From: Chloroflexota bacterium
GTDB lineage: Bacteria > Chloroflexota > UBA11872
Assembly (NCBI GenBank): GCA_022826485.1
Contig: JAJDUU010000006.1
Span: forward strand, 1-64,000
Length of the DNA stretch: 64,000 nt
Direction: 5' to 3'
The notes beneath the pieces are model-generated. The model did not search any database, had not been told where the DNA came from, and worked only from the letters and a program-made list of their open reading frames with translations. The translations under genes were made by a program, and so were the position numbers. Positions 42,070 to 45,132 of the stretch are shown one piece after another. How positions within the stretch are numbered: the stretch's first letter is position 1; every line of letters begins with the position of its first letter.

Positions 42070-42420
42070 ATGAGCGACCGCCATCGGCTGCGCCGTACCG
42101 CCGACATTGCCCGCGTGCGGCGGCGCGGCCGGCGAGTCGCCTGCCCCTATTTCGTGCTCTTCGTCGCGCCGGGCTCGGCCGAGTCAACGCGCCTGGCCGT
42201 CACGGCGCCTCGCCGCCTCGGCACGGCCGTGGCGCGCAACCGCATGCGCCGGCGCCTGCGGGCGGCGTTCCAGCCGCACCTGACCACGCCGCAGCCGGTC
42301 GTCGACATGGTGGCCCAGGCCCGCCCGCCGGCGCGCGACGCTCCGTGGGCCTGCCTCGGGCGCGCGGTTGCCCAGTCCGTGGCGCGGGCGCGCGCCGCGC
42401 ACGCACCGAGCCTGGCGTGA
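42070..42420 (+). CDS. rnpA: Ribonuclease P protein component
   Basis: The 116-residue protein has the RNR motif GTAVARNRMRRRLRAAF and the N-terminal RLRRTADIARVRRRGRR. It supports the RNase P RNA in removing tRNA 5' leaders. Its last 30 residues are Ala/Arg-rich and lengthen the tail. The stop overlaps the yidD start (GTGA), indicating coupling. Gene order after rpmH is the common bacterial one. Confidence 0.95.
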   Translation: MSDRHRLRRTADIARVRRRGRRVACPYFVLFVAPGSAESTRLAVTAPRRLGTAVARNRMRRRLRAAFQPHLTTPQPVVDMVAQARPPARDAPWACLGRAVAQSVARARAAHAPSLA

Positions 42421-42626
42421 AACGCCTGGTGCTGGCGCTCATCCGCGGCTATCAGCGGTGGCTGTCCGGCGGGCTCGGGGCCAACTGCATCTACCACCCC
42501 ACCTGCTCCGAGTTCGCCCACACCGCCATCGAGCGCCACGGCGTGGCTCGGGGGGGATGGCTGGCGCTGCGTCGCATTGCCCGCTGCCACCCCTTCGCCG
42601 CCGGCGGCTTCGACCCGGTGCCCTGA
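42417..42626 (+). CDS. yidD: Membrane protein insertion efficiency factor
   Basis: Starts at the GTG overlapping the rnpA stop; 69 residues. The signature is NCIYHPTCSEFAHTAIERHG, with an amphipathic N-terminal helix (LVLALIRGYQRWLSG) and CHPFAAGGFDPVP at the end. YidD helps YidC insert membrane proteins. It lies 15 bp before yidC, in the standard order. Confidence 0.94.
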   Translation: MKRLVLALIRGYQRWLSGGLGANCIYHPTCSEFAHTAIERHGVARGGWLALRRIARCHPFAAGGFDPVP

Positions 42627-42641: not shown

Positions 42642-44282
42642 ATGGAGCTTTTTTCCAGCATCGGCGAGACCTGGCAGACGTGGGCCGTCAACCCGCTCAG
42701 CGAGGTCCTCAACATCATCCGCGACGGCGTTGGCAGCTATGCCATCGCCATCATTCTGTTCACCATCGGGATTCGCACCCTGATGGTCCCGCTCACCGTC
42801 AAGCAGATTCGCTCCCAGCGGCGCATGCAGGTGCTGCAGCCCGAGATGGCGGAGATCCGCCGCAAGTACCGAAACGACCGCCAGGCGCAGTCGCAGGCCA
42901 CGATGAAGCTCTACAAGGAGCACGGCGTCAGCCCGCTCTCGGGCTGTCTGCCCATCTTCGTGCAGCTGCCGATCCTGCTCGCGCTCTACGGCGGCATCCT
43001 GACCCTGAGCGGCCGGGGACTCCTCAACGAGCAATTCCTCTGGTTCAACCTGGCGCGCGAGGACTCCACGATCCCGATTCTTGGCGAAACCAGCCCGACG
43101 TCCCCCACCGACGTCCACCTGGCGACGACGTTTCCAATCACTCCGCTCGAGTCGCAGTTGGCTGCGGAGTTTGCCGGCCAGAACGCCAACTTCCGCTTCA
43201 CCATCGATACCGTCGACCCCGCCGATTCGGCGGCCGCGGTCGCCAGCGGGCGCGCGAGCGCGGCGTTTGTCGAGGAGCGGATGGATCTCGCCGAATTCCC
43301 GCCCGGCACATCGGAAGCGCGGCTCGTCCAGGCGGCCGCCTTTGTGGTGGAGCGTGATCGGCCGGTCACGCGGCTTACCGAGCCCGAAGCCGCCGGGATT
43401 CTGCGCGGCGAGATCACCGATTGGTCGCAGCTCGGCTTGCCGCCCGGCCCGATCAATGTCTTCGGCCTGGGGAACGACATCGGCACGCGGAACCTGCTCT
43501 CGACGCTGCTCCTCGACGGCGAGCCGATTCCGCCGCGGACCATTCAACTGCGGGCGACGGTCGAGGATTACGTCGCGGAGCTCATCGCCGATCCCGGCTC
43601 GCTCGGCATCTCCGGGCCGGTCGTGCACGACAACGTGCGCATGGTCAACATCGAGGCCGAAGGCAAGGAGCGCGCCTTCTCGGCGAACGTGGCGGCGCTG
43701 CGGGATGAGAACTATTCCCTGGCCCGTGAGGCCTACGTCTATTGGGCGCCGGGCGAAACCGACGGCGAGAGGTTCGTGCAGAAGTGGTGGGACAGCCGCG
43801 AGGGGCAGACCGCCGCCGGCAACGCCGGGTTCACGCGCATCCCGATTCAACAGGACGTATTCGGACAGGGCGGCTTTTATATCTCGCTGCTGGCGCTGCT
43901 CGCCGGAGCCTTCCAGTTCGTGCAGGCTCGGATGATGGCCTCACGGACGGCCGAGGGCCAGCAGGCGACGGTGAATCGAGTCATGCAGTTCATGCCGATC
44001 ATCGTGGTCATCTTCGCCTGGTCGTTCCAGGCGGGCCTGGTGCTCTATTGGGTAATTTCCAGCATCATTGCCATCGTGCAGCAGTACTTCACCACCGGAA
44101 CCGGCGCGCTGATTCCCGCGCACTGGCCCATCGCCCGCGACCTGACGGCCCGACAGGCCGCCCCGACCCCGGCCAAGACCTTGGAAGACACAGCAACCAA
44201 CGAAGCGGTGAGCCGCAGCCCCGGCGAGGGCGTGGCGACGACACCGCGGCGGCGACGACGTCGAAGGAGGCGCAGTGGCTGA
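42642..44282 (+). CDS. yidC: YidC/Oxa1 membrane insertase with PstS-like extracytoplasmic insertion
   Basis: The 546-residue protein has an Oxa1-type core: TM1 with the groove Arg (AIAIILFTIGIRTLMVPLTV, R45), cytoplasmic hairpin (about 52-100), TM2 (LPIFVQLPILLALYGGI), TM3 (about 410-428), and TM4/TM5 at 447-481. A basic tail ends in an Arg-run for ribosome contact. Between TM2 and TM3, normally a short outer loop, lie about 255 extra residues (about 150-405). These read like a PstS/SBP domain: PVTRLTEPEAAGILRGEITD, DWSQLGLPPGP, GNDIGTRNLL, FVQKWWDSREGQTAAGNAGF. The fold and side of the membrane are inferred. Confidence 0.93.
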   Translation: MELFSSIGETWQTWAVNPLSEVLNIIRDGVGSYAIAIILFTIGIRTLMVPLTVKQIRSQRRMQVLQPEMAEIRRKYRNDRQAQSQATMKLYKEHGVSPLSGCLPIFVQLPILLALYGGILTLSGRGLLNEQFLWFNLAREDSTIPILGETSPTSPTDVHLATTFPITPLESQLAAEFAGQNANFRFTIDTVDPADSAAAVASGRASAAFVEERMDLAEFPPGTSEARLVQAAAFVVERDRPVTRLTEPEAAGILRGEITDWSQLGLPPGPINVFGLGNDIGTRNLLSTLLLDGEPIPPRTIQLRATVEDYVAELIADPGSLGISGPVVHDNVRMVNIEAEGKERAFSANVAALRDENYSLAREAYVYWAPGETDGERFVQKWWDSREGQTAAGNAGFTRIPIQQDVFGQGGFYISLLALLAGAFQFVQARMMASRTAEGQQATVNRVMQFMPIIVVIFAWSFQAGLVLYWVISSIIAIVQQYFTTGTGALIPAHWPIARDLTARQAAPTPAKTLEDTATNEAVSRSPGEGVATTPRRRRRRRRRSG

Positions 44283-45132
44283 CCATCCAACCGACTCATC
44301 CGACGCTCTGGAGAGCATCGAAGCGTCCGGCGCCTCGGTCGAGGAGGCGCTGCGCCAGGCCCTGCGGCAACTCGACGCCACCATCGACGACGTCGACGTC
44401 GAGATTCTGTCCAGCGGCGGCTCGCGCTTGCTGCGTCGCGACGCCGAAGCGCGCGTGCGTGTGGTGCGCCGCGAGCGGCCCTTCTCCGCCACCATCGACG
44501 ACGTGGAGCATGAGCCTCCGGGCGAAGCCGACGTCGAACCCCCGCCAAGAGCCGCCGAGCCCAGCGAGCCGCCGGTCGAACCGCCTCCGCCCGCTCCGCC
44601 GGCGCCCGAACCCGTGGAGGAGCCCGTCGCGGAGCAACCGGCGCCCCGTGCCCGCGCGTCTCGGACCCTGGTCGAGAGCGGCGAAGAGCTGCAGGACATC
44701 GTCGAGGATTTGCTCGCGGGCATGCTGGATCGCATGGGATTCATCGCCGAAATCGAGCTCGTCGAAGAGGATCCGCTCGCCTACAACGTCGTCGGCGACG
44801 ACGACTTTTCCAAGCTCATCGGCAGGCATGGGTCCACGCTGCGGTCGTTCGGCTACCTCATCAACCTCATGGCCGGACGGCAGCTCGGCCAGCCGTGCCG
44901 CGTGCTCATCGACGTCAACAGCTATCGCGCTCGCCGCGCCGATCACCTGCGCGAGCTTGCCGAGACGCTCGCCGACGAGGTGATCGAGACCCAGGAGCCC
45001 GTCACGCTCGAGTCCATGCCCGCCAACGAACGCCGGCTCATCCACGTGGCCCTGGCCGACGACGAAAACGTCCGCACCTACAGCATCGGCGAGGGCGATG
45101 AGCGCCGGGTCGTGATCAGCCCCAGGGCCTAG
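44275..45132 (+). CDS. jag: Jag/KhpB RNA-binding protein
   Basis: The 285-residue protein starts at GTG 44275 inside the yidC end (8-bp overlap). It has an N-terminal Jag domain (ASGASVEEALRQALRQL), a long Pro/Glu-rich linker (about 85-125), a KH domain (SKLIGRHGSTLRSFGYLINL) and a C-terminal R3H domain (SMPANERRLIHVAL). KhpB/Jag forms an RNA-binding complex with KhpA that affects cell elongation. Position after yidC is standard. The linker is longer than in most homologues. Confidence 0.93.
   Translation: MADHPTDSSDALESIEASGASVEEALRQALRQLDATIDDVDVEILSSGGSRLLRRDAEARVRVVRRERPFSATIDDVEHEPPGEADVEPPPRAAEPSEPPVEPPPPAPPAPEPVEEPVAEQPAPRARASRTLVESGEELQDIVEDLLAGMLDRMGFIAEIELVEEDPLAYNVVGDDDFSKLIGRHGSTLRSFGYLINLMAGRQLGQPCRVLIDVNSYRARRADHLRELAETLADEVIETQEPVTLESMPANERRLIHVALADDENVRTYSIGEGDERRVVISPRA

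Follow-up and report, generated by a model that had tools for sequence, protein, structure and literature searches.

The only YidC membrane protein insertase of a Chloroflexota bacterium carries, within the TM2-TM3 extracytoplasmic loop of its insertase core, a domain with the fold of a PstS-type substrate-binding protein (SBP); the domain has kept its two lobes, has lost its oxyanion site and remains under purifying selection. In YidC, which is both essential and almost universal, the main known example of a large extracytoplasmic domain is P1, located between TM1 and TM2. The protein described here is a variant of this known family, with a well-supported anatomy and a function that we infer: with a probability of roughly 0.55, the domain is a ligand-less binding-protein ectodomain reused for protein contact, in docking or as a chaperone. 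The fixation of a binding-protein domain in a core loop of a family's only YidC shows that the loop accepts whole folded domains, and it documents an SBP fold without a ligand site that is still selected. With it, an extracytoplasmic domain is known to have been gained by an insertase a second time, independently, which allows the purpose of such domains to be addressed by comparison.

The yidC locus and the insertase core

The yidC gene lies in the usual housekeeping cluster rnpA-yidD-yidC-jag of the window, the 64,000-nucleotide stretch of contig JAJDUU010000006.1 that was analysed (Table 1), and its reading frame is open with no internal stops. The product is the sole PF02096 protein of the genome. 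It scores 196.9 bits on the YidC family profile TIGR03592 (cut-off 84.3) and 179.1 bits on PF02096 (60KD_IMP; cut-off 35), the YidC match to the latter being split into two pieces. Both the five-TM core (TM segments by hydropathy) and the conserved TM1 groove arginine are present; this residue, R45, aligns to the groove arginine of B. halodurans YidC2 (3wo7) and is invariant across the 19 genomes of the family. The earlier note's claim of a complete core on both sides of the insert thus holds. The core looks functional by sequence and, since no other YidC is encoded in the genome, the protein is presumably active as an insertase. Its cytoplasmic poly-arginine tail is likely ribosome-facing. 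A nine-arginine C-terminus is common to the whole family and partly to the sister family, and two YidC genes are found in the Chloroflexota genome G338 (L084, L097).

Table 1. Coordinates of the yidC locus, of the inserted domain and its motifs, and of related features at other loci
Feature	Coordinates	Strand	Residues or remarks	Basis
rnpA, RNase P protein	42070..42420	+	conserved neighbour	
yidD, insertion efficiency factor	42345..42626	+	conserved neighbour	
yidC, membrane protein insertase with PBP-fold ectodomain	42642..44282	+	546 aa	
TM1	42744..42800	+	about 35-53, bears groove arginine R45	hydropathy
TM2	42945..43001	+	about 102-120, inside to outside	hydropathy, PF02096
FLWFNLAREDS	43035..43067	+	132-142, normal YidC outer-loop segment directly before insert	alignments
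Inserted PBP_like_2 (periplasmic-binding-protein fold) domain	43068..43868	+	143-409	Pfam, profile, AlphaFold2, Foldseek, NCBIfam
Degenerate ligand loop 1 (SBP GSxT)	43122..43142	+	here TTFPITP region	
Degenerate ligand loop 2 (SBP GGGSxxG)	43206..43232	+	here DTVDPADS region	
Degenerate ligand loop 3 (SBP DxxxxSR)	43257..43280	+	here SAAFVEER region	
Retained SBP scaffold motif LTxxxxxxILRGEITDW	43374..43424	+	245-261	
Degenerate ligand loop 4 (SBP RxxxSGT)	43464..43490	+	here LGNDIGT, only GT kept	
TM3-TM5, C-terminal half of insertase core	43872..44090	+		hydropathy, PF02096
Poly-arginine tail	44247..44273	+	R536-R544, cytoplasmic	
jag/khpB (Jag_N, KH, R3H)	44275..45132	+	8-base overlap with yidC stop	
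YidC insert, f53 genus (G173)	L089:1774-2334			
YidC insert, f53 genus (G215)	L090:1774-2343			
YidC insert, f53 genus (G159)	L091:940-1500			
Ser/Thr protein kinase-PBP_like_2 fusion, Chloroflexota genome	L140:3-1763			

Fold and origin of the inserted domain

The junctions of the insert were set by alignment. Insert-free YidCs of the sister family read FLWF-NLA..DRTI..YISxLA, and the same flanks in the window's family read FLWFNLARED-S-T-I [insert] GGFYISLLALLAG; the insert, flanked by the conserved NLA..D-x-T-I segment on one side and by the YIS of TM3 on the other, is therefore residues 143-409. The earlier note had placed it at 43086-43860 with about 255 residues; its position between TM2 and TM3 is correct and its extent is slightly larger, at about 265 residues. 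The insert is acidic (38 D/E versus 20 K/R) and has no cysteines, and the hydrophobic segments of the protein, the positive-inside pattern and the charge indicate that it probably faces the outside of the cell. In the nomenclature of PMC8675477 it falls within h4h5, the region of the Oxa1 superfamily between H4 and H5 (between TM2 and TM5) that is described there as hypervariable. In sister-family YidCs (L023, L024 and L026) this loop is altered in another way, being expanded by roughly 20-40 residues between TM2 and FLWF.

Profile and structure comparisons agree with the proposed SBP similarity, and the SBP-type motifs quoted for the insert are present in the sequence. PBP_like_2 (PF12849) matches YidC residues 151-371 with E=1.8e-15 (57.8 bits, cut-off 27), a phmmer search with the insert alone recovers solved PstS proteins at 2e-5, and a profile built from the 19 inserts matches solved PstS structures over nearly the full length at 1e-8 in a PDB profile search. 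An AlphaFold2 model of the insert (pLDDT 86.7, pTM 0.80), computed from an alignment of 18 relatives and 48 free SBPs and so partly dependent on the sequence result, has a two-lobed alpha/beta binding-protein fold whose top Foldseek matches are all PstS-type with probability 1.00. With TM-scores of only about 0.5-0.65 and an rmsd of at least 5 A over the full length, the modelled domain may differ from most solved structures in how its lobes are oriented, or this orientation may be poorly predicted. A model of the whole 546-aa protein from 19 close relatives only reached a pLDDT of 40 and was set aside, and no placement of the domain over the membrane is taken from it. Searching a viral fold library with the insert gave merely general SBP-like matches. 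The fold residues I253, G256, W261, Y358, Q389 and G396 are retained. On the PstS subfamily profile TIGR02136 the insert scores 43 bits, far below the cut-off of 206.6, and 'PstS-like' applies to it for ancestry and fold only.

Each of the 19 family genomes (6 and 13 species in two genera) has the insert at full length and without internal stops, and the inserts of the two genera are 46% identical. In other families of the class, the complete YidCs that were examined have lengths of about 325-365 aa and no insert, and among 400 Chloroflexota genomes (~380 of them outside the family) no insert-bearing YidC was found beyond this family. A scan of contigs from 84,980 species, which provides the coverage of phyla beyond Chloroflexota, required two short peptide patterns and could therefore overlook distant cases. 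Its 16 loci are all of this kind, and every one bears the title of a Chloroflexota or Chloroflexi MAG. Searches of the open-access literature gave no description of a YidC with an SBP domain. Several loci have isolate names (RHO, COS) suggestive of sponge hosts. Elsewhere, long open reading frames close to SBP matches (e.g. L072) proved to be normal pstS genes with pst genes next to them, and the other split or weak PF02096 matches inspected are contig ends, N runs, diverged loops, or YidCs of a genus with a different insert (below).

Nearly all of the source genomes are assembled from metagenomes, which could point to an error of assembly or binning or to a wrongly joined frame. This explanation is refuted by the recurrence of the same junctions across two genera and 19 genomes, the intact frame, the purifying selection described below, and the presence of the insert in the YidC of a closed 3.0-Mb chromosome (OY282448.1), one of the 16 loci of the contig scan, and its probability is negligible.

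In a tree with 49 free SBPs the inserts form one clade on a very long stem, apart from all of these; because of this, the origin is a single ancient acquisition in the family ancestor, which was fixed and then diverged fast. Descent from the genome's own PstS is rejected, as that protein groups with the other free SBPs, and with the inserts in a separate long-stemmed clade the donor cannot be named.

The search for other YidCs with an insertion at this loop also recovered a different case. Three genomes of another Chloroflexota genus (f53) have an unrelated insert of ~170 residues in the TM2-TM3 loop, located upstream of an FLWLPSLGQPD segment, whereas the insert of the window's family follows the corresponding segment. 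It has no Pfam match and no convincing PDB match; by eye its C-terminal part is Ig- or cohesin-like. With two unrelated inserts in the same loop, foreign sequence has been received there at least twice in the phylum.

Ligand-site loss and selection on the domain

Phosphate is ligated in PstS by the GSxT, GGGSxxG, D/SR and R..SGT loops. The best-conserved positions among 48 SBPs include these loops (GSxT, GGGSxxG, D....SR and R...SGT) together with the scaffold LT..Q...I..G.I.NW and the Y, Q and G residues. In the YidC inserts the scaffold positions are kept and the ligand positions are replaced, by different residues in each genus. Inspection for the phosphate-ligating residues shows that one genus has only G281-T282 left and the other hardly any, and ligand loop 4 is entirely gone in most of the sister genus. 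Identity between the genera is 12/33 at ligand-loop positions versus 122/267 over the whole insert. The genome also carries a separate intact PstS (TIGR02136, 281.7 bits), whose gene adjoins pstC- and pstA-like genes on contig C44; the yidC insert is not in a pst operon. Phosphate capture is therefore covered elsewhere, and the degeneration of the loops in both genera together with this separate PstS makes phosphate binding by the YidC domain unlikely. The PstS-like domain proposed earlier thus stands as to fold and ancestry, and its phosphate site is lost.

The inserted domain is under purifying selection, with dN/dS of 0.06-0.15 in most within-genus pairs and 0.236 in the most diverged computable pair. 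It evolves faster than the YidC core, for which dN/dS is 0.02-0.09. Across the family 76 insert positions are invariant, and 38 positions are constant in the family but uncommon among free SBPs (e.g. R227, Q230, R238, R240, R244, W368 and W383), a pattern that suggests a new surface under selection.

These observations bear on two other readings. The domain could close on a small molecule, perhaps not phosphate, and couple nutrient state to membrane-protein insertion. The predicted SBP fold, which is complete in both lobes and probably has a cleft, is consistent with this, as are the purifying selection and the fusion of PBP_like_2 to sensory proteins elsewhere in the phylum, such as the Ser/Thr kinase at L140. 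However, if a ligand had been conserved, the cleft should be conserved as well, and here the four ligand loops are degenerate, differ between genera and vary more than the remainder of the insert, and an intact PstS is encoded elsewhere; we regard such ligand gating as improbable, although some different, unrecognised ligand might conceivably be bound. Alternatively, the domain may act as a structural spacer or envelope anchor, adding bulk, stabilising the TM2-TM3 loop or linking to the envelope with no role towards clients. The loop does tolerate foreign domains, as the insert of the f53 genus attests, h4h5 is hypervariable across the Oxa1 superfamily (PMC8675477), and constraint on the insert is lower than on the core. 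Yet 46% identity between genera and 76 invariant positions, many of them family-specific, are more than a spacer needs, and occasional loss would be expected where all 19 genomes retain the insert; a spacer is accordingly an unlikely explanation, if a credible one.

Candidate roles and comparison with known systems

The earlier note had offered ligand sensing, binding of substrate proteins and loss of ligand binding as possible functions. Phosphate sensing is made unlikely by the loss of the ligand loops in both genera, and the other two are preferred jointly, in the form of the ligand-less ectodomain for protein contact. According to this proposal, a PstS-type domain was built once into the TM2-TM3 loop of the housekeeping YidC in the ancestor of one Chloroflexota family and most likely no longer senses a ligand. 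It would sit as a rigid ectodomain over the membrane groove and there hold the outer segments of client proteins as they emerge, provide a docking site for partners such as SecDF, or do both. The precedent is E. coli P1, a domain in contact with SecD/SecF whose cleft has been proposed to accommodate unfolded chains (PMC7618853), and by analogy a similar protein-contact role may apply here; SecDF is present in the genome. As YidC alone translocates segments of typically <30 residues (PMC8675477), export of the ~265-residue loop should itself require Sec. In a more specific version, which we offer only tentatively, the former solute-binding Venus-flytrap would close on emerging client segments and serve as a membrane-protein chaperone gained independently of P1.

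The monoderm YidC/SpoIIIJ proteins (B. halodurans YidC2, 3wo6/3wo7) share the five-TM core, the groove arginine and the type of gene neighbourhood with the window YidC, but have a short TM2-TM3 loop where the latter has ~265 residues of SBP fold. YidCs of the E. coli type (3wvf, 4utq) likewise bear a large folded extracytoplasmic domain on the insertase. As the earlier note rightly pointed out, however, P1 lies elsewhere, between TM1 and TM2, and has another fold, whereas the insert is PBP-like, lies between TM2 and TM3 of the core and was acquired separately. PstS-type proteins (PF12849, TIGR02136; 1twy, 4gd5, 9l8j, 4jwo) have the fold, the scaffold motifs and a significant profile similarity in common with the insert, which differs from them in its lost ligand residues, its lack of a signal peptide or lipobox of its own, and its location outside a pst operon. 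In the Chloroflexota Ser/Thr kinase fusion (L140) the same SBP family was recruited onto another protein in the same phylum, but there PBP_like_2 lies at the end of a signalling kinase, whereas in the window YidC the domain is inside a transporter loop.
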